Origin: Kangiella koreensis DSM 16069
GTDB taxonomy: Bacteria; Pseudomonadota; Gammaproteobacteria; Enterobacterales; Kangiellaceae
DNA length: 64,000 nucleotides
Reading direction: 5' to 3'
Assembly: GCF_000024085.1 (NCBI RefSeq)
Contig: NC_013166.1
Span: 1,178,001 to 1,242,000, forward strand
The position numbers were made by a program, and so were the translations under genes. The notes under the pieces are model-generated. The model was not told the DNA's origin. It was given only the letters and a program-made list of their open reading frames with translations, and ran no database searches. Shown in pieces: positions 2,500-57,589 of the stretch. Position 1 is the first letter of the stretch. Every line of letters starts with the position of its first letter.

Positions 2500-3768
2500 C
2501 TAACTGAGTTTTAAGATATCCTGCCAGCGTGAGGTGTAGTGGGGGGAGCAGGAATTGGCGCGCATAGCCCAGTTTTTGGCAAAACCCAAACTTCCAAATT
2601 TCACGGTGTCCTGGCCGTAGCGTCGATTGATTTTGTCGAGACTTTCCATCAGCTCTGGCCGTTGCGGCACGCCTTCAAAAATATCAGGCTGATAACCATG
2701 ACTATCGACTATTCCATTGAGCATGATTCCTGCCTTTTTATAAGATTCACCTGCTTTCACAATATGTCTTAATCCTTGCTCAACGGCTTGCAGAAAAATA
2801 CTGGTATCATCTGTTGGTTCAGGCAGTTGAAGAGTGACACTTGGCCGATTGTGGTAAACCAGCTCCTTGCGTTGCCCGTAAAGAAATACGGTAATTGATG
2901 AAGCGAGAGAGGATTGATTGCGCAGTTTTTCGCAGCAACGACTGGTGTGGTGTGCAACAGCTTCTTTTAAATCAGAATAGATACTAAGAGGTTTGCCAAA
3001 AGAGCGTGAATTTAGAATCGATTTCTTAGGCTCAGGCAATTCAGAAAACTTCAGACAAGGCTGACCACGCAGTTCTAAAATGGTGCGTTCCATATTGACG
3101 GAAAACATCCGTTGCAAGGTTTTGTAATCAGCGTTATGCAGATCCCAGGCGGTGTGAATATCCTGCAGGATCAGTTTCTTGGAAAGCTGGCGCCCAATCC
3201 CCCATATTTTAGCTACAGCAATTTGCTTTAACGCCCATTTTCGAGTCGCCGGGTTGCTCAGATCGACTACACCATGAGTTGTTGTTTTATGCTTTTTAGC
3301 AAAATGATTGGCGACTTTTGCGAGTGTCTTTGTTGGGCCTAACCCTATACAAACGGGCAGAGACAAACAACGCCAAAGTTCTGAGCGAATAGCTTGAGCG
3401 CGTTGAGTTAGATCATTCTGAAACCCTTCAAATCGCATAAAAGACTCATCCACCGAATAAGGTGCAACCTGATCGCAGTGTTGCTCCAGTATCCAATTAA
3501 AGCGTTTGGAGATATCACCATACAAACCATAGTTCGATGAAAAGCAGGTGACTTTATGTTTCTGAATAATTGGGCGAGCTTCGTGATAGGGTGCTGCCAT
3601 GGGGATGCCAAGCGCTTTGGCTTCATCGGACAGCGCAATGATGCAGCCATCATTGTTGCTTAGCACAATCACCGGCTTGCCGTATAAATCCGGACGAAAC
3701 ATGCGCTCGCAGGACACATAAAAACTGTTCACATCGCATAACGCATAGGTAGCTTGCGGTTTGTTCAT
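2500..3768 (-). CDS. umuC: DNA polymerase V catalytic subunit UmuC
   Basis: A 422-residue Y-family translesion polymerase, the normal UmuC length. The N-terminus, from ALCDVNSFYVSCERMF, holds the first metal-binding Asp and the YVSCER steric-gate region. The palm motif with SVDES (PYSVDESF, about residue 105) carries the catalytic Asp-Glu. A helix-hairpin-helix thumb (IWGIGRQLSKKL) and little-finger domain follow. It acts with UmuD' and RecA at stalled forks and is mutagenic. Its start overlaps the umuD stop by one base (TAATG), showing translational coupling. It converges on the halogenase gene, with only 24 bases between the stops. Confidence 0.96.
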   Translation of the reverse strand: MNKPQATYALCDVNSFYVSCERMFRPDLYGKPVIVLSNNDGCIIALSDEAKALGIPMAAPYHEARPIIQKHKVTCFSSNYGLYGDISKRFNWILEQHCDQVAPYSVDESFMRFEGFQNDLTQRAQAIRSELWRCLSLPVCIGLGPTKTLAKVANHFAKKHKTTTHGVVDLSNPATRKWALKQIAVAKIWGIGRQLSKKLILQDIHTAWDLHNADYKTLQRMFSVNMERTILELRGQPCLKFSELPEPKKSILNSRSFGKPLSIYSDLKEAVAHHTSRCCEKLRNQSSLASSITVFLYGQRKELVYHNRPSVTLQLPEPTDDTSIFLQAVEQGLRHIVKAGESYKKAGIMLNGIVDSHGYQPDIFEGVPQRPELMESLDKINRRYGQDTVKFGSLGFAKNWAMRANSCSPHYTSRWQDILKLS

Positions 3769-4190
3769 TAACGCAAGCTCCGTGCTAAACCAGTGACTAC
3801 GCCCCAGATCACCAGCTCGCTTTCACCAGTGATTAGAATATCCTGATAAGCCGGGTTTTCAGCTTGTAGCCGTAAGGCACCGCTAGTACACAAGCGCTTA
3901 ACGGTGAACTCATTATCGAGCATGGCTACAACCACATCTTTGTCCTTGGCGGTCAAAGAGCGATCAACCACTAGAATATCATTCTGAAAAATTCCAGCCC
4001 CGATCATTGAGTCGCCTTCAACCTTGGCGAAAAAAGTCGTCGCTGGGTTTTGAATCAGTAGCTGATCAAGGCTGAGCGTATCTTCCATGTGCTCGTCAAC
4101 GACACCCGGAAAGCCAGCAGAAATCTTGCCCGAATATAAAGGGATATCAGAGTATTGACCGCTTGGTTTAAGGATGGAAACTTTGCTCAT
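3768..4190 (-). CDS. umuD: DNA polymerase V accessory protein UmuD (LexA-like S24 self-cleaving peptidase)
   Basis: From the ATG at 4190 the product is 140 residues, matching E. coli UmuD; an upstream in-frame start would add 18 atypical residues. The self-cleavage site is A25-G26 (ISAGFPG). Ser61, in GDSM, and Lys98, in FTVKR, form the Ser/Lys dyad. RecA-stimulated cleavage yields UmuD', which activates UmuC. SOS control is expected, but no canonical CTG-N10-CAG LexA box was found by eye in the 130 bases upstream. The operon is umuD-umuC with a one-base overlap. Confidence 0.95.
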   Translation of the reverse strand: MSKVSILKPSGQYSDIPLYSGKISAGFPGVVDEHMEDTLSLDQLLIQNPATTFFAKVEGDSMIGAGIFQNDILVVDRSLTAKDKDVVVAMLDNEFTVKRLCTSGALRLQAENPAYQDILITGESELVIWGVVTGLARSLR

Positions 4191-4329
4191 AATGACTCGT
4201 AGTGTTGATAGTGATTGTGCTGAAAAATACTGCTGGTAACCCAATTAGATTAGCACACCAGGCCGACCTGAGTCAGCAGTAAATGGCCGTACAAAATCCA
4301 TACAAAAGATTACTTTAGTTATCATGGGC

Positions 4330-6384: not shown

Positions 6385-6993
6385 TCAGGCTTGTTCTTTT
6401 ACACCAGCCGCACCAAAAGTGATAAAGCGTAATTGCAGAATAGTTCTTTCTTTGAGCTTTTCACGCTCTATGGGATTCAGATCCAAGGCTTCAGCACCTG
6501 CGTTAAACACCAGTGTGACCAAACCTTCTGCTAAAGTATAAGCAAATTCTTGCGTATATTCGGACTCGGTCATTAAATATTCGGTGAGCTCATCTTTGAA
6601 ATGGTTCACTTCACGAGCTACAGCTTCACGAAATTTTAGTGAGGTGCCGCTACGCTCCCGCAATAACAGGCGGAAAATATTAGGGTTTCGTTCAACGAAC
6701 TCCATGAAAGTTTCCACCGAGGTATTGATAACGCTACCATTCTTCTCGATTCGTTGACGTGCCTTGCGCATAAGCTCGCGTAGGGTTAGGCCGGACTCAT
6801 CAACTAAAGTCAGACCCAGTTCGTCCATGTCATTGAAATGTCGGTAAAAAGAAGTGGGGGCTATGCCGGCTTCACGAGCCACTTCGCGCAGGCTCAGACT
6901 GGCAAAGCTGTGTTCTGCCGACAAATGCATCAATGCCGCGTCAATTATGGCCTGACGGGTTTTTTCTTTCTGTAACGCACGCGCTCCGGCCAT
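6385..6993 (-). CDS. fabR: FabR/DesT-type TetR-family repressor of unsaturated fatty acid synthesis
   Basis: 202 residues from the ATG at 6993 ([13 protein letters not shown]), which has a GGAG-like site upstream; longer in-frame starts add sequence not seen in FabR. The N-terminal helix-turn-helix ([20 protein letters not shown]) and the following [13 protein letters not shown] and [12 protein letters not shown] segments closely match E. coli FabR. FabR and its Pseudomonas relative DesT sense the saturation of the acyl-CoA/ACP pool and repress desaturation or unsaturated fatty acid synthesis genes. It is divergent from a desaturase, and two matching palindromes lie between the two genes. FabR versus DesT is a naming choice; the function is the same type. 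Confidence 0.9.
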
Positions 6994-7039
6994 GCTGTTC
7001 TCCTCAGTAATTATCCCTAGTATAGAAAACAATGGCTTA

Positions 7040-7057
7040 AGAGTACAGGTGTACGCT
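7040..7057. promoter_or_regulatory. Probable FabR/DesT operator (fabR side)
   Basis: AGAGTACA-GG-TGTACGCT is an 18-base imperfect palindrome with one mismatch. It shares its half-site with the perfect operator 62 bases to the right, and lies 47 bases upstream of the fabR start, suggesting autoregulation. Confidence 0.75.
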
Positions 7058-7100
7058 GGATTGCAATTGTCATATTCCGTGGTTATACTAGCCCAAGACT

Positions 7101-7120
7101 TAGCGTACAAGTGTACGCTA
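7101..7120. promoter_or_regulatory. Probable FabR/DesT operator (desaturase side)
   Basis: TAGCGTACA-AG-TGTACGCTA is a perfect 9-2-9 inverted repeat ending 21 bases before the desaturase start. The AGCGTACA half-site is the one recalled for E. coli FabR sites. Binding here would block the desaturase. Confidence 0.85.
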
Positions 7121-7141
7121 ATTTATAGTTAGAGGCACTAC

Positions 7142-8278
7142 ATGACAGATTCTACCCAAACACATTCAAGACCCATCTGGACCAACATCATCTTTTTTGG
7201 ATTAAGTTTCCTTGCTGCCATTACCTTAGTTCCTTGGTATGGCATTCAATACGGCTTCCATTTCTCAAGCTGGGCTTGGGGAGTAGGGCTATGGTTATTC
7301 TCAAGCACTGCCATTTCAATGGGCTACCACCGTTTGTGGTCGCACCGTGCTTATGAAGCCAACCCTGTTTTACGCGTTATTCTTGCAATCGGCGGTTGCT
7401 TATCATTGCAGAACAGCGCCTTGCATTGGTCTTCTGATCACCGCATACACCATAAGCATGTTGACCATGAGGAAAAAGATCCTTATTCGGCCAGCTTAGG
7501 TTTTTGGCACTCACATATTGGTTGGCTGTTAGTACGCCGCGATAATGGTCGTTACGACGAGCAGTATGACCGTTGCAAAGACTTGCAGCGCGACCCGATT
7601 GTGATGTTCCAGCACAAGCACTATTGGAAATTAAGCGTTGGTTTGAATGTTCTGGTTCCGGTTGTTTTAGGTTTGGCTTATGGCATCTTCTGGGAAATGA
7701 TTTTGGTTGCCGGCGTTCTGCGTCTGGTTTGGTCACACCATTTAACTTTCTTCATTAATTCGCTAGCCCATATGTGGGGCACGCGTCCTTATACCGAAGA
7801 AAACTCAGCGCGTGACAACCTGGTATTAGCGGTCTTGACGGGCGGCGAAGGCTATCATAACTATCACCATAAATTTCAATATGACTATCGTAATGGCGTT
7901 CGCTGGTGGCACTTTGATCCTTCAAAATGGTGGATTAAGTCATTAAGCTGGGTTGGTATTACCTCTAATTTGAAAAAAGTACCGGTCGAGAAGATCGAAA
8001 AAGCCAAGGCCGAGACTTTATTATTAAAGGCAAAAAGCAAAGTTGCTCATTTGCCTAACGCAGAAGAAGTGATGCAAATGCTGCATGATGAGTATGAAAA
8101 GCTTGTTCAGCACTTAGCCGAAGTTTATGAAGCTCAAAAGCGGTGGGTGGAAGCAAAGAAAAACAAGTTAATCGAAAGTTATGAACATTCAGCCTTGATG
8201 GATAATTACCATCAACTTCGCAAGCGTTTTGAAGAGCAGAGAGCATCCTGGATGACTTTAGCAAAGCAATACGCTTAA
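7142..8278 (+). CDS. Membrane fatty acid (acyl-CoA) delta-9 desaturase
   Basis: A 378-residue integral membrane diiron desaturase. The three histidine boxes are present: HRLWSH near residue 63, HRIHHKH near residue 100 and HNYHH near residue 239. Hydrophobic segments occur near residues 13-50, 76-95 and 160-200. The reaction is O2-dependent introduction of a cis double bond into saturated acyl chains. A charged, Lys/Glu-rich C-terminal tail of about 100 residues (280-378) extends beyond the usual bacterial core and looks helical. The FabR-type gene is divergent, with operators in the shared promoter, matching the Pseudomonas DesT-desaturase arrangement. Confidence 0.93.
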   Translation: MTDSTQTHSRPIWTNIIFFGLSFLAAITLVPWYGIQYGFHFSSWAWGVGLWLFSSTAISMGYHRLWSHRAYEANPVLRVILAIGGCLSLQNSALHWSSDHRIHHKHVDHEEKDPYSASLGFWHSHIGWLLVRRDNGRYDEQYDRCKDLQRDPIVMFQHKHYWKLSVGLNVLVPVVLGLAYGIFWEMILVAGVLRLVWSHHLTFFINSLAHMWGTRPYTEENSARDNLVLAVLTGGEGYHNYHHKFQYDYRNGVRWWHFDPSKWWIKSLSWVGITSNLKKVPVEKIEKAKAETLLLKAKSKVAHLPNAEEVMQMLHDEYEKLVQHLAEVYEAQKRWVEAKKNKLIESYEHSALMDNYHQLRKRFEEQRASWMTLAKQYA

Positions 8279-9696: not shown

Positions 9697-10121
9697 CAGC
9701 CTGACTGGTTTTCTTCTACATAGCGAGCCGAAAGCTTGATTAACTCCTCAAGAACAGCCTTATCAACATCTTCTAACTTATTGATATAAAGACAGGACTT
9801 GCCTGTTTTATATTTCCCCAATTGAGCCATTAGCTCCTCGTACCGCTTAAATCCAGCCATAATATAAACGCTGATGTTTTGTTTTCGTGGTGAAAAGCCC
9901 GTTAAGAACCAATCGCCTTCGTGGCCACTGGCATATTGGTAATGATATTCACCAAAGCCAATGATGCTGCCACCCCACATTTTAGGCTCAGCCCCAGTAG
10001 CTTTTTTCATCATGTTAAGAATTTGCTGGCAGTCTTCTAGTTTTTGAGCAGGCTCTACCTGCTGCAAGAAGCTCGCTACGTCTTGCTCGGTTGGCTGGGT
10101 TTTGTTTTCAGTTTTGGCCAT
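9693..10121 (-). CDS. DUF1801 (YdhG-like) domain protein
   Basis: 142 residues. The central part, from MWGGSIIGFGEYHYQYASG to NISVYIMAGF, is typical of the DUF1801/YdhG fold, and the C-terminal CLYINKLEDVDKAVLEELI fits the same family. These are small soluble proteins; relatives have been linked to iron chaperone-like or unknown roles, so no function is assigned. The N-terminal 30 residues are charged. It stands alone, converging on the small gene at 9526. Confidence 0.8.
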   Translation of the reverse strand: MAKTENKTQPTEQDVASFLQQVEPAQKLEDCQQILNMMKKATGAEPKMWGGSIIGFGEYHYQYASGHEGDWFLTGFSPRKQNISVYIMAGFKRYEELMAQLGKYKTGKSCLYINKLEDVDKAVLEELIKLSARYVEENQSGC

Positions 10122-10229
10122 GCTTTATTCCTTGCTTGACTTAATAAGTGGTGGCTAGGTTTCTGAAACTATTGCATATTTCCGACTATGACAAAAGTGT
10201 GACTTTTCGGTTAAATGCTAAAAAAAATC

Positions 10230-10462
10230 TTTACTTCTGCGGTGTATATAGTATTCTTTTCATCGCTGGTTAAAATAACAGCTATCGAATGGATACATTT
10301 TCGATGATACACCGAGTAAATCAGTGGGCCTTAGCTTCATAGATTCACTTCAAGTCGTACCTCGCTATTTGTTACCTAAGTTAGTGTCAATTTTATCTCA
10401 GTAAGACCGCCGTTTTTGGCAACAACTTTATTTTTTTAAGCAATTAGCTTTGGAGTTTTATT
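10230..10462 (+). promoter_or_regulatory. Promoter and long structured leader of the cold-shock gene
   Basis: TTTACT at 10230 and TATTCT at 10252, 16 bases apart, are a plausible sigma-70 promoter. This gives a leader of about 200 bases before the ATG at 10463, the long 5' UTR known for cspA-type genes. A small inverted repeat, ATCGAA/TTCGAT (10284-10305), lies early in it. The stretch holds no convincing coding frame. A role in temperature-dependent translation is inferred by analogy. Confidence 0.45.
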
Positions 10463-10669
10463 ATGTCTAAGATCACTGGTACCGTTAAGTGGTTCAACGA
10501 ATCTAAAGGTTTTGGTTTCATCGAGCAAGAGCAAGGCGAAGATGTGTTTGTACACTTCCGTGCTATTCAAGGTGACGGTTTCAAAACTTTAGCAGAAGGC
10601 CAACGTGTTGAGTTCGATATCGAGCAAGGCCCTAAAGGCGCTCAAGCTGCTAACGTAACTAAAGTATAA
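10463..10669 (+). CDS. Cold-shock domain protein (CspA family)
   Basis: 68 residues, one cold-shock domain. RNP1 (KGFGFI) and RNP2 (VFVHF) are both intact, with [11 protein letters not shown] at the N-terminus. It binds single-stranded RNA/DNA and acts as an RNA chaperone. A long leader and a strong terminator frame it as a single-gene unit. Which CspA paralogue it represents, and whether it is cold-induced or constitutive, cannot be told from the sequence. Confidence 0.96.
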
Positions 10670-10694
10670 TTTTATAAAATTGTATATTTAGATC

Positions 10695-10727
10695 TAAAAA
10701 ACCGCGTCAAATGGCGCGGTTTTTTTA
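10695..10727 (+). terminator. Rho-independent terminator of the cold-shock gene
   Basis: AACCGCG pairs with CGCGGTT around a short loop and is followed by T7. Confidence 0.88.
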
Positions 10728-10773
10728 TGCTTAAAATTTGATCGATCTAAATAAGAAATCACGGAAAGCGACT

Positions 10774-11127
10774 ATGAAAATTGTATATCACGCAGAAAAC
10801 GCTATGGATGCAAACATCTTGGTGGGAGTCTTAGCTTCGGCTGATATTTATGCGCAAGTACGCGGTGCCGGTATGCAGGGAGCGGTTGGCGAAGCCGCCG
10901 CCATGAACAATGTCAAAGTCTGGGTTCACGATGAAGACTATACAGAAGCTCGTGATATTGTTGATGGTTGGCAAGCTGCTGAATTCACAGCCGACGATGC
11001 AGACTTGTTTGACGCAGCCGATGACTATCATCAAGAGCCTGCACCAACAGAGAGCCACCTGGTAAGAGATGTTTGCATTGCCGTAGCCATTGTTTTGTTG
11101 TTTGTGGCAGCGACGATCGAGTTTTAG
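10774..11127 (+). CDS. DUF2007 domain protein with C-terminal membrane anchor
   Basis: 117 residues from the ATG at 10774; a TTG 36 bases earlier is in frame but lies against the terminator. Residues 1-65 (KIVYHAENAMDANILVGVL ... VKVWVHDEDYTEARDIV) form the DUF2007 ferredoxin-like domain, suggested to be a signal-transducing module. An acidic linker follows, and a single hydrophobic helix (VCIAVAIVLLFVAATI) ends the protein, so it is probably tail-anchored in the inner membrane. No partner is evident nearby. Confidence 0.8.
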   Translation: MKIVYHAENAMDANILVGVLASADIYAQVRGAGMQGAVGEAAAMNNVKVWVHDEDYTEARDIVDGWQAAEFTADDADLFDAADDYHQEPAPTESHLVRDVCIAVAIVLLFVAATIEF

Positions 11128-51783: not shown

Positions 51784-52047
51784 AGATTGCTCAATCTTTT
51801 TGTTATTCCCGTGTAAGGAGATCGATATTCGACTATTCAACAAGTTGGCAGAAGTATAACTTTTATTACGGGGATAAAGAAGTCAGGCCTGAGAAGACAG
51901 TAAATTACTGAACTCTCATGATCGGGCAGGAAAATGAATTGTAAAATCTTTTGACAATTAAATTGCATTATTAGAAAAGCTAATTAGTATGGGGGGCTGT
52001 CCATCATCACAAAGTAATGTTAATTAATCTATAAGGAGGGATTTAAG

Positions 52048-52197
52048 ATGGCTGTAAAACATACACCTACGGGAATTATCCACCAAGGTTCTAAAGGTGG
52101 TAAAACCGGCTGTGGAGTTGATACTAAAAATCATTTAGATCATTGGGTTACCACTCATCAGAAGATAACCTGTGATAAGAATGGTTGTAAGAATTAA
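52048..52197 (+). CDS. Small Cys-containing protein of unknown function (49 residues)
   Basis: An AAGGAGGG ribosome site, nearly perfect, lies 7 bases before the ATG. The 49-residue product has three Cys (C22, C42, C47), four His and many Lys and Gly, and neither signal nor membrane segment. Cys/His content could bind metal. It heads the AT-rich island with DUF5343, HEPN and PIN-GHKL genes, 106 bases before the first of them. I do not recognise a family. The exact start could be off by one base in my count. Confidence 0.6.
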   Translation: MAVKHTPTGIIHQGSKGGKTGCGVDTKNHLDHWVTTHQKITCDKNGCKN

Positions 52198-52303
52198 TGA
52201 TAACTAAACAATCATTAGCAGGAGTTTGACAATTGGTAGGGTCAAAGTAAAAGTATTTTCTTAAAATACTGTGATCTAACATTTCTAAAATAAGGATAAT
52301 GAT

Positions 52304-52924
52304 ATGGGGTTGCCAACGAGTTATACACAAGCATTTGGAGCTTTTGAGGAATTTTTTGCGAGGATTAGAGATGCGCAAGCACCAGTTAAATTTACTCAGC
52401 AAATATTAAAAGATTGGGGTTATAAATCCAACAATCACAGGCCATTTATTCCCTTGCTTAAGTCTTTGGGTTTTCTTTCGCCAGACGGAACCCCCACGCA
52501 GCGGTACCATGAGTATAGAAACCATGCCAAGTCAAAAGAAATAATGGGACAAGCACTAAAAGAGGCGTATAGCGATATTTTCCTAATTAAAGCGCATCCA
52601 ACCTCTGCAGATAAAGATTTAATTCAGGGTAAATTTAAGAGTTATCACAATGCTAGCGATAATGTAGCAAGATTACATACAAATACGTTTTACTCTTTAT
52701 TAGAATTAGCTGATCTATCTTCAAAGTCAGAAAAAGCTACCCATATAGATGAGAGTAAGAACCAAGAAAAGTCCATTAATACAGATAACCAAAAAACATT
52801 GCCTCAGTTACCTGCTGGGAAGGTGGGACTTCATTACAATATTCAAATCCATTTGCCTGCTACAAAGGATGTTGAAGTTTACAACGCTATATTCAAATCT
52901 TTAAAAGAGCACTTAATTGACTAG
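52304..52924 (+). CDS. DUF5343 domain protein
   Basis: 206 residues. The first 110 residues match DUF5343: SYTQAFGAFEEFFARIRDAQAPVKFTQQIL, FIPLLKSLGFLSPDGTPTQRYHEYR and AYSDIF. They look like a winged-helix fold. A Lys/Ser/Asn-rich linker (about 135-165) and a small terminal alpha/beta segment (GLHYNIQIHLPATKDVEVYNAIFKSL) follow. It overlaps the HEPN gene by 8 bases, so the two are made together. DUF5343 proteins often occur in accessory islands; the function is not known. Confidence 0.85.
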   Translation: MGLPTSYTQAFGAFEEFFARIRDAQAPVKFTQQILKDWGYKSNNHRPFIPLLKSLGFLSPDGTPTQRYHEYRNHAKSKEIMGQALKEAYSDIFLIKAHPTSADKDLIQGKFKSYHNASDNVARLHTNTFYSLLELADLSSKSEKATHIDESKNQEKSINTDNQKTLPQLPAGKVGLHYNIQIHLPATKDVEVYNAIFKSLKEHLID

Positions 52925-53501
52925 TAAAAAAGATATTCGTGACTTCTTTTTTAGAGGTCTAATGTTTGAATCTGAGGCGTCCAGCTTTCAAAGTGCAGGC
53001 ATTGAAATCGGCGCGGATTCGCAATATACAGAAAAAGAGTTATTAGCTGAAGCATTATCACCATTCGGTCTTACAAGAAGAAATAATGCATTAGAAATGG
53101 CTAGAGTGTATGCGATTCTTAATTGTTTTGAGAATGAATTGCGTACATTCATAAGGGAAACACTTGAAGAGAAGAAGGGGCTAGATTGGTGGGACCAGCT
53201 ACCTTCACGAATAAAAAGTCACGCAGAAGGAAGGCAAGAAAGCGCATTAAAAGACTCTTGGTTGGAGGGAGAGAAAAGTGATCTGCTAGGATTTGTTGAT
53301 TTCGGAATGTTAGCTAAAATTATTATTGAGGAATGGGAACTCTTTAATAATCTGATCCCATCTCAACACTGGTTAAAGCAACGAATGGAAGAGTTAGAAA
53401 GAGCAAGAAATTTTATTGCTCATAACCGTATGCTGCTTCCCTCTGAGTTTCAAAGAATCTATATGTATGTATCTGACTGGAACCGAGTTATTGGACTGTA
53501 A
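52917..53501 (+). CDS. Swt1-type HEPN domain protein (putative RNase)
   Basis: 194 residues starting at a TTG that overlaps the DUF5343 stop by 8 bases. The HEPN fold is visible as helices: ENELRTFIRETLEEKKGLDWWDQ near 72-94 and a final helix ERARNFIAHNRMLL, with the R164-x4-H169 motif that marks HEPN ribonucleases. The pattern resembles the HEPN domain of Swt1. HEPN proteins are often toxins or defence effectors. It lies 58 bases before a PIN-domain gene; Swt1 itself joins PIN and HEPN domains. Confidence 0.82.
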   Translation: MTSKKDIRDFFFRGLMFESEASSFQSAGIEIGADSQYTEKELLAEALSPFGLTRRNNALEMARVYAILNCFENELRTFIRETLEEKKGLDWWDQLPSRIKSHAEGRQESALKDSWLEGEKSDLLGFVDFGMLAKIIIEEWELFNNLIPSQHWLKQRMEELERARNFIAHNRMLLPSEFQRIYMYVSDWNRVIGL

Positions 53502-53559
53502 TAAGTTATTCATTCAGATGAGCTTAGGCATGTTTTACAAATAATATAGAATATATGGC

Positions 53560-54963
53560 ATGATAGAAAAATTAATAAAACTACATAGAAATAGTGATCA
53601 GATAGACTTTGAAAAGATTTGGAGCGAAGGGCTGTTTACTTTTGATTCAAATGTGATATTGGATCTTTATAGATTACCAAAATCTGCGCGTAATGATCTG
53701 ATGAGTGTGTTTGAAAATGATCAGTTTAACAAGCGCATATGGATTGGTTTTCAAGTAGCATTAGAGTTCCTTAATAATAGATACGATGCTATTAGTGATC
53801 AAAAAAACAAGTTTAATACTGTTCGTACACTTCTTGAAGATTCAAAAGAACAATATGAAGAGCTGGTTACTTCTTTAAGGTCTGGACTCAATAATCTAAA
53901 GCTTAAGCAAAGGCACTCTCTTATAAATCCTGACGCTTTTATAACGCCAGAAAATGTCGAAAATGGTATTAAGTACATAAATGATTTCATTGAGGAACTT
54001 GAGCGTTTAGAAAAAGAACAGTCTGATGTTAGTGATCACGATGAAATAAAAGATTTTGTGTTCAAAACATTTGAAGGAAAAATTGGTAAAGGCTTTGATA
54101 AAAAAGAGCTATCATCAATATATAAAGAAGGTGAGAAACGTTACGAGTTTCAGTTCCCCCCTGGTTATAAAGACAAAGGTAAGGAAGGTTCCTATCATTT
54201 TGAAGATAAAGAGTACATCAGAAAGTATGGTGATTTAATACTTTGGAAAGAAATTATTCAAAAAGCAAAGTCAGAGAACTATAAATATATTGTTTTAGTT
54301 ACCGGAGATATAAAAGAAGATTGGTGGTTTGAAAAAAGAGGGAAAAAGCTTGGGCCAAGAAAAGAGCTTATAAATGAAATATATACGGAGGCTACAGAAC
54401 TAGATACTTTTTATATGTATGACACTTCGACATTTCTTCAATATGCTAGAAACGAGTTAAACCTAAAAATTCAGGACTCATCTATAAACGAAGCAAAGGA
54501 CTTAATTGATTTAAGTAGACAAGAGAGGATAGATGATGAAGAAGGACTGGTTTCTTTGGCTGAACTTCTTAAGTTTGCCTCTAGCCAGTTTAAAAATCTA
54601 AAGGTTGGGATCGGTAGATCTGTTAAAAATATTGACCCCATCAAGATTAACAGCAGAGCAATATTTACGGCTCTTATGGAGATATATTCTAACGTATTAC
54701 ATCATGGACGCGATAACTATGTTGGTATCCAAGCCAAAGAGGAAAAAAATTATGTTTTGCTAAGGTTCAAGAACTTAAGAAACGATATGACTGGTTCAGA
54801 AATTCCTAGAGTGCCGAACTCTCCAGATAGTGCACGTGGTTATGGCTTGCAGTTTGTAAGAGAATCTCTTGCGAAAGAAGGCATAGATGTACATATAGAG
54901 AATGAAGGTAAAAGATTTGTTTTAGAAATGTTTATACCTAAAACATACTATGAAGTGGCTTGA
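53560..54963 (+). CDS. PIN-like nuclease fused to a GHKL-type ATPase domain
   Basis: 467 residues. Residues 20-300 form a PIN_8-like nuclease with D29 (FDSNVILDLY), E69 (QVALEFLNNR), D225 (YGDLILWKEI) and D250 (VTGDIKEDWW) as the likely metal ligands; a helical insert (about 80-200) interrupts it. Residues 330-465 resemble a GHKL/HATPase fold, with an N-box-like E374-x3-N378 (MEIYSNVLHHG) and a G2-like GYGLQFV at 427-433. The usual DxGxG box is missing (NLRNDMTG), so ATP binding is uncertain. It follows the HEPN gene in the same orientation. Confidence 0.8.
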   Translation: MIEKLIKLHRNSDQIDFEKIWSEGLFTFDSNVILDLYRLPKSARNDLMSVFENDQFNKRIWIGFQVALEFLNNRYDAISDQKNKFNTVRTLLEDSKEQYEELVTSLRSGLNNLKLKQRHSLINPDAFITPENVENGIKYINDFIEELERLEKEQSDVSDHDEIKDFVFKTFEGKIGKGFDKKELSSIYKEGEKRYEFQFPPGYKDKGKEGSYHFEDKEYIRKYGDLILWKEIIQKAKSENYKYIVLVTGDIKEDWWFEKRGKKLGPRKELINEIYTEATELDTFYMYDTSTFLQYARNELNLKIQDSSINEAKDLIDLSRQERIDDEEGLVSLAELLKFASSQFKNLKVGIGRSVKNIDPIKINSRAIFTALMEIYSNVLHHGRDNYVGIQAKEEKNYVLLRFKNLRNDMTGSEIPRVPNSPDSARGYGLQFVRESLAKEGIDVHIENEGKRFVLEMFIPKTYYEVA

Positions 54964-55098
54964 ACTATGACTATATAGTCCCAAAGAGTGGCACCTCTAT
55001 GGTTGGATCTGCGTTACGACGCACCCTACATATCCACCTCATTCAACCCCCGCAATAATCCCCCCATCTTTCCATTCGCTGTTTATTTTTAAGGCGTG

Positions 55099-55104: not shown

Positions 55105-55110
55105 GCCGAG

Positions 55111-55230
55111 CATTCCCGAGGGGCGGCTTTTGCCTGAGAATTGGCTCATTGCGGTTACTGTTTGTAATTGCTTGAGCGCCAGACCCTTTGAACCTGATCC
55201 GGGTTATACCGGCGTAGGGACAGGGAGTGC
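55111..55230 (+). promoter_or_regulatory. TPP riboswitch (THI element)
   Basis: The conserved cores are present: GGGGCGGC ... GCCTGAGA at 55119-55138 and ACCCTTTGAACCTGATC ... GGCGTAGGGA at 55183-55220. The closing stem pairs CATTCCC with GGGAGTG. It binds thiamine pyrophosphate and would shut off the following operon. The 150 bases after it hold no clear terminator hairpin, so control may be at translation. Confidence 0.95.
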
Positions 55231-55381
55231 AGACGATTTGCTTTGCCGTTTATGGAATGACCTTTAGCTTTTTTGTTTTAACTAGCTTCAGGTCGATTGT
55301 TTTACAGGGATTGGTTGGCGCTTTTGAGCTTGTATCTCTGCCTTTTCTGTTGTTACTCCGCATAGCCCAAACATAAGTTAT

Positions 55382-57589
55382 ATGTGGAGTTGTCTTTTGA
55401 AACACGCAATCCGTTCTTTTAAACCTCTTGTTTTGACCAGTCTGTTGGCGATATCGCTTGGTTTGCTTGCTGATGAGCAGGCGGATGACGACATTGAGAC
55501 TTTGGTAATTAATGCTGAGCATCTGTCTGAGAGTCCTTTGACTTTGCCGTCGAGTGTGACGGTGGTTGATAGCGAGACGGCTCGTAAGAACAATGCTTAT
55601 CATCTTGATGATATTTTCAATCTGGCGCCGAATGTGAATTTCGCCACTGGCGCGGCGCGCGGTCGTTTTATTCAGATCCGTGGCGTAGGCGAGCGTAGCG
55701 AGTTTGTTGAGCCGGTCAATTACTCGGTAGGTCTGATTGTCGATGGCATTGATATGACGGGGATTGCTGGCGGCGCTTTAATGCTGGATACGCAGCAGGT
55801 TGAGATTTTGCGTGGGCCACAGGGAACTCTGTATGGCGCCAATGCGTTGGCGGGTTTGGTCAATATGGTATCGGCTGCTCCTGAAGCAGATTTGTTGAAG
55901 GTTGCTGCTTCGTTTGAATCCTACAATGGTCGTAGCGCTTCTTTGATCAGCAGTGATCAGTTATCGGAAGCCTGGGGCTATCGTTTTGCGGTGGGTCAGT
56001 ATCGTAGCGATGGCTACACTGACAATATTTTCCTCGGACGCGACGATACCCAGAACTTTGATGAATCAAGCATCAAAGGGCGTCTGGTCTATCAGCCGGA
56101 TGACAGCTTTTCACTAACTTCTAATCTGATTGTGGTGGATGTGGACAATGGCTACGATGCCTTTAGTCTCGATAATACGCGCCAGACCTATTCTGATGAG
56201 CCGGGTCATGATCGCCAGGAAACGATTGGCGCTTCCTTTATCGCGGAATGGGCATGGGATTCTACCAAGCTGCAAAGCACCTTGTCTTTTGCCGATAGCG
56301 AACTGGATTATGCGTATGACGAAGATTGGAGCCATACGGGTATTTGCGAAGGCACGCCGTGCGATAGTGATGACTGGGGTTTTGATTGGTGGTATTCGTC
56401 GTTTGATCGTTTCTTAAGAGACAATCGTAACCTGAGTTTAGACGTGAAGCTGATAGGTGGGCAGGGCTCTTTATCAGAGTCATCATCTGAAACCTTATCG
56501 AATCAGTGGGTGGTCGGCGCTTATTTCCGTGACCAGTCGGTTGATCTGTTACGTCAATATACTTTCAATCCTGTGGATTTCACCAACCAGTACGATACGC
56601 GAAATGCGGCGCTTTATGGTCAGCTGGATATTCCGTTGAATGAAGCCTGGACTTTGGCGAGCGGGTTGCGTTATGAGCGTCAGGCAGCTGATTACAGAGA
56701 TAACCAGCCGTTTGTCGACGATCGTTCTGAAAATTTCTGGGGTGGTAAGGTTTCGCTGGAGTATCAGGCCAATGAACAGACCATGCTTTATGTCTTGCTA
56801 TCGCGCGGCTACAAAGCAGGAGGCTTTAATACCGCGCAGGAGCTGCCCGAATCGCAGCGCGAATATGATTCAGAATACATGCTCAACCATGAGCTGGGTG
56901 TTAAAGGAATGTGGCCTGATGCTGGATTAACTTTGCAGGCCTCAGTGTTCTATCAAGACCGCGATGATATTCAGTCCAAGCAATCTTACGTCACCTCGCA
57001 GGCAGATGGCCGTACCTTGCAGGAAGGCGGCGAGTGTCCCTGTAATTTCACTGATTACAACATCAATGCCGGTGGCGCTCAAAGCTATGGCGCTGAAATT
57101 GAATGGAACTGGCGTTCGCTGGATTGGATTCACCTCTATGGTTCATTAGGTCTGCTTAAAACTGAGTTTGAAAACTTGCAGAGCTTTACCCATGTTCTAG
57201 CCGATTTGACCGCTAATCCTCCGGTGCCTTATGATTTGAGCGGTCGCGAGCTGGCGCACTCGCCAGAGTTACAGTGGGTGGCTGGCGCTGATTTTTACTT
57301 GAACGACTACTGGAGTCTGAATCTGCAAACTGAATTCAAAGATGAGTTTTATTTGTCGGACCGTCATCAGGTTAAAGCCGATGATTATCAGTTGTGGCAT
57401 CTGGCACTTACTTATGAAGATGCTAATTGGCTGTTAGAATTCTATGGGCGCAACCTGACTGACGAGACAATTGTTAACCGTGGCTTTGGCAGCTTCGGTA
57501 ATGACCCACGTAAGTTTTATGAAACCGAGCCTTATTTCCAATATGGCACACCAAGAATCGTTGGTGTTCGAGCCGCCTATCAATTTTAA
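55382..57589 (+). CDS. TonB-dependent outer-membrane receptor, probably for thiamine
   Basis: 735 residues with a signal peptide (about 1-30). The plug domain has LDDIFNLAPNVNF, the IRG motif (FIQIRGVG) and EILRGPQGTLYGANALAGLVNM; the beta-barrel ends in VRAAYQF with a terminal Phe. Two Cys pairs lie in an extracellular loop (EGTPCDSDD, GECPCNF). The TPP riboswitch and thiamine genes around it point to thiamine or its phosphates as the substrate, as in riboswitch-linked receptors of marine bacteria. Confidence 0.92.
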   Translation: MWSCLLKHAIRSFKPLVLTSLLAISLGLLADEQADDDIETLVINAEHLSESPLTLPSSVTVVDSETARKNNAYHLDDIFNLAPNVNFATGAARGRFIQIRGVGERSEFVEPVNYSVGLIVDGIDMTGIAGGALMLDTQQVEILRGPQGTLYGANALAGLVNMVSAAPEADLLKVAASFESYNGRSASLISSDQLSEAWGYRFAVGQYRSDGYTDNIFLGRDDTQNFDESSIKGRLVYQPDDSFSLTSNLIVVDVDNGYDAFSLDNTRQTYSDEPGHDRQETIGASFIAEWAWDSTKLQSTLSFADSELDYAYDEDWSHTGICEGTPCDSDDWGFDWWYSSFDRFLRDNRNLSLDVKLIGGQGSLSESSSETLSNQWVVGAYFRDQSVDLLRQYTFNPVDFTNQYDTRNAALYGQLDIPLNEAWTLASGLRYERQAADYRDNQPFVDDRSENFWGGKVSLEYQANEQTMLYVLLSRGYKAGGFNTAQELPESQREYDSEYMLNHELGVKGMWPDAGLTLQASVFYQDRDDIQSKQSYVTSQADGRTLQEGGECPCNFTDYNINAGGAQSYGAEIEWNWRSLDWIHLYGSLGLLKTEFENLQSFTHVLADLTANPPVPYDLSGRELAHSPELQWVAGADFYLNDYWSLNLQTEFKDEFYLSDRHQVKADDYQLWHLALTYEDANWLLEFYGRNLTDETIVNRGFGSFGNDPRKFYETEPYFQYGTPRIVGVRAAYQF

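Follow-up and report, generated by a model that had tools for sequence, protein, structure and literature searches.

A DUF5343-HEPN pair and a PIN_8-GHKL protein as two candidate RNase-based defence modules in a variable slot of Kangiella koreensis

A Swt1-type HEPN domain and a PIN nuclease are combined in eukaryotic Swt1, which the relevant part of PMC3710099 describes as a single polypeptide whose HEPN dyad is listed as inactive. An excerpt of PMC12839542 presents a BREX-associated fusion in which a Schlafen RNase is followed by a minimal histidine kinase and a wHTH. As outlined in an excerpt of PMC13092281, DS-3 is a one-protein PIN defence system without an antitoxin; its PIN domain is split between the N- and C-terminus, and its catalytic residues are needed for defence. 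PtuZ, according to an excerpt of PMC11980606, joins an N-terminal PIN-like domain without catalytic residues to a BECR toxin domain and belongs to a three-gene operon. Among candidate systems, PADLOC lists PDC-M34, a two-gene arrangement.

We analyzed an island of three genes, here called A (DUF5343), B (HEPN) and C (PIN_8-GHKL), in a window of 64,000 nucleotides from K. koreensis DSM 16069, whose genome is a single contig of 2.85 Mb. Like Swt1, the island combines a HEPN of the Swt1 type with a PIN nuclease. However, the two are encoded by separate genes rather than in one polypeptide, the HEPN motif is intact, and the PIN gene shows no regular linkage, so membership in a Swt1-type system is ruled out. 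Gene C shares an RNase head and a C-terminal GHKL-type domain with the Schlafen-histidine kinase fusion, but its RNase is PIN_8 and a search for a wHTH gave no match. Compared by excerpted description only, it resembles DS-3 as a single PIN-containing protein and PtuZ in carrying a PIN-like domain at the N-terminus fused to a second domain; unlike PtuZ as described there, it retains the catalytic residues and forms a one-gene module. Genes A and B match the PDC-M34 models end to end and their order recurs, whereas PDC-M34 has candidate status only and some DUF5343 genes pair instead with a DUF4145-like HEPN protein. The pair also differs from HEPN-MNT toxin-antitoxin systems, in that the partner of gene B is DUF5343 and not a minimal nucleotidyltransferase, for which no match was found.

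A variable slot between conserved flanks

The island is flanked by an asparaginase gene on one side and by a TonB receptor gene behind a TPP riboswitch on the other (Table 1). Because the riboswitch lies directly upstream, the import substrate of this receptor is probably thiamin or one of its precursors. The GC content of genes A, B and C is 0.37, 0.38 and 0.33, compared with 0.48 in both flanking genes, in agreement with the AT-rich island described before. The start given for the three-gene island, 52048, turned out to be the start codon (ATG) of an additional 49-aa ORF and not of genes A-C. This putative ORF is preceded by a Shine-Dalgarno-like sequence that looks good by eye; it was found in its own genome only among 41 related genomes (own included) and in none of the foreign loci examined. 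Promoter and terminator scans of the island gave signals not above those of shuffled sequence, and searches of E. coli genomes returned no DNA match to the island or to the Enterobacter PIN_8 gene.

Nineteen stretches around the asparaginase gene of relatives were compared, and three of them (L077, L078 and L079, all congeners) hold both flanks. BLASTN similarity of these congeners to the window stops at 51884, 51885 and 51992 and restarts at 55066, 55054 and 55049, respectively, and in 3/3 the same flanks enclose other AT-rich cargo. Since the cargo between the same flanks differs and, among the 41 related genomes, gene A, the 49-aa ORF and full-length gene C occur in their own genome only, the island occupies an exchangeable slot. 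By eye, the congener cargo consists of lipase-like and lipoprotein genes, or of membrane-protein paralogues with an ankyrin-type gene. A PADLOC scan of this cargo, covering 7 of 20 ORFs of at least 60 aa, gave six proteins without a match and one weak PDC-M72A match. The idea of a defence hotspot was kept in part only: the slot is variable, but the congener cargo, as far as scanned, is not recognisable defence.

Table 1. Features of the island, its flanks and the rest of the window
Feature	Position in window	Strand	Evidence
cspA thermoregulator RNA, elsewhere in the window	10307-10727	+	RF01766
Variable slot, AT-rich, flanked by the asparaginase gene and by the TPP riboswitch with TonB-receptor gene	51993..55048 (ends approximate)	.	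BLASTN against congeners
Putative 49-aa ORF, left island end	52048-52197	+	Translation, ATG at 52048
Gene A, DUF5343 protein, PDC-M34A	52304-52924	+	206 aa; PF17278 E 6.8e-44
Gene B, Swt1-like HEPN, PDC-M34B, predicted RNase	52917-53501	+	194 aa; PF18731 HEPN_Swt1 E 1.5e-13
Gene C, PIN_8-GHKL, separate one-gene module	53560-54963	+	467 aa; PF18476 E 1.7e-57, PF14501 E 2.1e-6
Predicted RNase head of gene C (PIN_8, residues 25-270)	53632..54369	+	D29, E69, D205, D225, D250
C-terminal tail of gene C, residues 329-465, GHKL (histidine-kinase-like ATP-binding)	54544..54954	+	N-box E374/N378
TPP riboswitch	55109-55238	+	RF00059
TonB-dependent receptor gene	55382-57589	+	TPP riboswitch directly upstream

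The DUF5343-HEPN pair

The three genes lie on the same strand, and gene B, with a TTG start, overlaps gene A by 8 bases, as first described. The Pfam scores of all three genes (Table 1) are far beyond chance, and gene B carries the Rx4-6H motif of active HEPN RNases (R164/H169) at the positions proposed earlier; both residues are invariant in 16/16 aligned M34B proteins, the window protein included. In PADLOC, gene A corresponds to PDLC04589 (PDC-M34A; E 1.1e-76, residues 1-204) and gene B to PDLC04592 (PDC-M34B; E 4.3e-69, residues 1-193). By homology and adjacency, genes A and B are thus assigned to the phage-defence candidate PDC-M34, and the earlier statement that no named system contains this set does not apply to the pair.

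DUF5343 was found in 16 other genomes, and wide regions were read in 15 of them (G538, below the cut-off, was omitted), giving 14 loci; G452 (L040) had no profile match. A HEPN-type gene follows DUF5343 directly on the 3' side in 14/14 loci matched by profile in other genomes, 10 with M34B and 4 with a DUF4145-like protein, and in 7/7 viral-contig loci (5 M34B, 2 DUF4145-like). Part of the counted loci had served to build the profiles, with L120-L125 and L223-L229 (13 loci) outside profile building. The counts include L038, where DUF5343 is spread across two frames, and a match in G155 that contains a stop. The DUF4145-like partners occur in L037, L038, L039, L123, L228 and L229; the Rx4-6H motif is absent from 4/6 of them, and the three that were scanned gave no M34B match. 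Among the 41 related genomes (own included), gene A is found in its own genome only. The plasmid search found no DUF5343 and one weak M34B relative, in Sphaerospermopsis, with no DUF5343 neighbour by profile; a single-protein HEPN scan of viral contigs found none. Searches by sequence for solved homologues of genes A and B returned only chance-level matches.

No third gene is conserved with the pair in the 14 loci, except for shared housekeeping flanks. In L124, a TIR-domain gene (3241-4203, -; PF13676 E 1.1e-20) directly follows the pair, and its near twin L125 has, by eye, a transposase-like gene in that place. Some pairs have PIN-type genes from other families nearby, namely PIN_12 in L037 (7304-8485, -, after the pair) and NYN in L039; phmmer found no relatives of these two, or of the unassigned neighbours in L035, in the other 20 pair loci.

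The PIN_8-GHKL protein and its family

The preliminary description of gene C, a PIN domain with D29, E69, D225 and D250 fused to a GHKL-like domain containing E374, is borne out by the Pfam matches and by the residues themselves. The GHKL match is to HATPase_c_5 (PF14501), and the model of the protein has a good histidine-kinase-type fold of the Bergerat (GHKL ATP-binding) kind. Structure-comparison lists for the model were filled by histidine kinases, and the PIN assignment comes from Pfam; no solved homologue was found by sequence for the PIN_8 alignment. A search for a HisKA/DHp phospho-acceptor domain gave no HisKA match at E up to 1. In histidine kinases the G1-box Asp contacts the adenine; by eye, this position is Asn in 5/5 GHKL-tailed proteins, and the N-box Glu and Asn are kept in 4/5, the Asn being lost in L142. 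The tail is probably a binding or sensing fold, possibly ATP-dependent, and not a kinase.

Full-length relatives of gene C (L002, L003, L142 and L222) lie in other contexts, on a plasmid and in proviruses among them, with no DUF5343 or M34B gene by profile. Its own genome gave the single full-length match both in the class sample (1/274) and among the related genomes (1/41); the latter set also has partial relatives: G681 encodes a PIN_8-only protein, and in G662 the GHKL part is matched marginally.

PIN_8 was detected in 13 other genomes, of which 11 were read and 10 had a profile match (G364 had none). The cellular and plasmid loci number 22 (10 genomes, 11 of 63 plasmid records, and Herbaspirillum) and the viral loci 81 (80 kept of 91 stretches, plus L222), some viral loci being copies of one another, such as L142-L144, which are the same element. 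From these loci, 99 complete PIN_8 proteins were reduced to 92 at 90% identity. The heads are related in 4186/4186 pairs, whereas the tails (73-402 aa) are related in only 38/4186 and fall into 69 clusters, as compared by phmmer only, so that clusters could merge under profile or structure comparison. A looser cut, in which head ends were still attached to the tails, had for that reason grouped 38 proteins in one of 36 clusters; the figure of 69 comes from the stricter cut. As a control, two length-matched windows taken from inside the head, with medians of 127 and 141 aa, were related at the same thresholds in 4182 and 4186 of 4186 pairs, and a variable helical insertion at residues 85-190 (median 95 aa) was related in 1702. 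The GHKL cluster, with 5 members, is one tail of many: Pfam-matched tails include GHKL, IF2_N, PcrA/UvrD tudor and a zinc ribbon (sub-cut-off), and some others are tandem repeats.

The conserved acids of an active PIN nuclease are present throughout. D29, E69, D205 and D225 are invariant in 92/92 proteins, the invariance of D225 being partly ascertainment because a pattern covering this residue had retrieved 80/81 viral loci, and position 250 is D in 79 and E in 13. A PADLOC-DB scan of eight PIN_8 proteins gave six without a match and two weak matches (E 0.002-0.008). The protein matches PHROG 9788, a phage-protein family without assigned function. Among open-licence PMC papers, none was found for PF18476, and papers on PIN8 concerned plant PIN8 only.

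In 5/11 plasmid PIN_8 loci, a count uncorrected for background, a neighbouring gene carries a restriction, Abi, SIR2 or S-4TM/nucleotidyltransferase annotation, and 6/11 have no annotated defence neighbour; two of the plasmids measure just 4.2 and 5.2 kb. In viral contigs, the PIN_8 gene lies among NinB, O-like and RecT genes (L142), alongside an integrase and a repressor (L222), or alongside a terminase and a scaffold gene (L150). Three PIN_8 queries gave zero matches against 50,697 deposited phage records, while a control query with the scaffold protein gave 350; for this reason, the viral-contig copies may be mostly provirus passengers.

Several other neighbours were noted. A Cas2-like gene of 90-91 aa lies just upstream of a PIN_8 gene with a tandem-repeat tail in L045 (8977-9249) and L058 (2867-3142), with PF09827 E-values of 2.2e-4 and 0.013, both below the cut-off. 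A DUF2971-like gene adjoins the PIN_8 gene in L002 (4990-5865, by eye) and L052 (6381-7238, annotated), and in L043 the gene beside it (9780-10835, -) encodes a protein related to PIN_12 of L037 (E 8.7e-8). In the viral contig L179, a 403-aa HEPN_Swt1-like protein (6866-8077, +; below the cut-off, PDC-M34B E 7.7e-9) is encoded 3' of the PIN_8 gene, the only M34B-profile neighbour among the 103 other PIN_8 loci.

Alternative readings and a proposed mechanism

The preliminary description had read the three genes as one RNA-targeting defence system, in which DUF5343 would sense and the HEPN and PIN-GHKL proteins would be two linked RNases, and co-occurrence across genomes had been set beforehand as the check on it. 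Apart from the shared strand and the A/B overlap, the arrangement of gene C agrees with such a system: it starts 58 bases after gene B, and because of this short gap on the same strand co-transcription is possible, with no terminator-like site between the two. The HEPN_Swt1-like neighbour in L179 and, in L037, the PIN_12 gene that follows the pair also point that way. However, PIN_8 was found in 0/21 other DUF5343-HEPN loci (the downstream flank being shorter than 1.4 kb in 5/21, L121 and L225-L228) and DUF5343 in 0/103 other PIN_8 loci; the three genes are not together elsewhere in the sample. The closest relative of genes A and B (L035) lacks the PIN_8 module, and the closest relatives of gene C (L002, L003) lack the pair. 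Co-occurrence in the sample searched thus speaks against a three-gene system and for A+B and C as separate modules, and we regard the linked reading as highly unlikely for this locus. The domains and residues of the preliminary description stand, while its single system is replaced by two separate modules.

Both modules could instead be toxin-antitoxin-like stabilisation or stress devices, with DUF5343 as the antitoxin of the HEPN protein and the PIN_8 tail as a built-in antitoxin. Tight two-gene pairs with overlaps, the frequency of PIN and HEPN among toxin folds and the occurrence of PIN_8 genes on very small plasmids are consistent with this, whereas the listing of the pair in PADLOC as a phage-defence candidate, itself a prediction, and a tail diversity that suits trigger recognition more than a conserved antitoxin make it rather unlikely. 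It is scarcely probable that gene C encodes a regulatory or RNA-processing enzyme whose GHKL domain phosphorylates a substrate or hydrolyses ATP in normal physiology. Its good histidine-kinase-type fold and the N-box residues kept in most GHKL-tailed proteins would fit such a role, but its patchy distribution, its relatives on a plasmid and in proviruses, the missing HisKA match, the Asn at the G1 position and the N-box loss in L142 argue against it.

We lean towards a slot that holds two independent RNase-based defence-candidate modules, the PIN_8 gene encoding an RNase that inhibits itself and carries an exchangeable tail for sensing the trigger. DS-3 offers a published precedent for a PIN system of one protein. 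In the first module, the HEPN protein would be the RNase, and DUF5343, perhaps a nucleic-acid-binding partner, would restrain it and/or sense the invader; in a variant of this scheme, DUF5343 would bring the RNase to its target. In the second, the PIN_8 head would be kept inactive by its own C-terminal domain until a phage- or plasmid-derived trigger meets that domain and the head is released, and RNA cleavage would then stop growth (abortive infection). The tail would be the part exchanged in evolution, here a GHKL fold. Autoinhibition, trigger, RNA target, abortive outcome and anti-phage role are what we infer for these modules.

In summary, the DUF5343-HEPN pair is an already listed candidate for which no paper was found among open-licence PMC papers, either for DUF5343 or under the name PDC-M34, and the PIN_8-GHKL fusion adds a new form to the nuclease-plus-sensor kind. 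The diversity of PIN_8 tails is the most interesting result of the analysis, as a constant effector with variable tails is the pattern expected of innate immune receptors. We suggest tentatively that PIN_8 proteins may form a large class of one-gene, receptor-like immune proteins, with an invariant, intact RNase head and a hypervariable trigger-recognition tail, spread by proviruses and plasmids; the GHKL type would be one receptor among them, using an ATP-binding fold as its sensor. If this is true, the tails of the PIN_8 family would be a catalogue of trigger-sensing domains.
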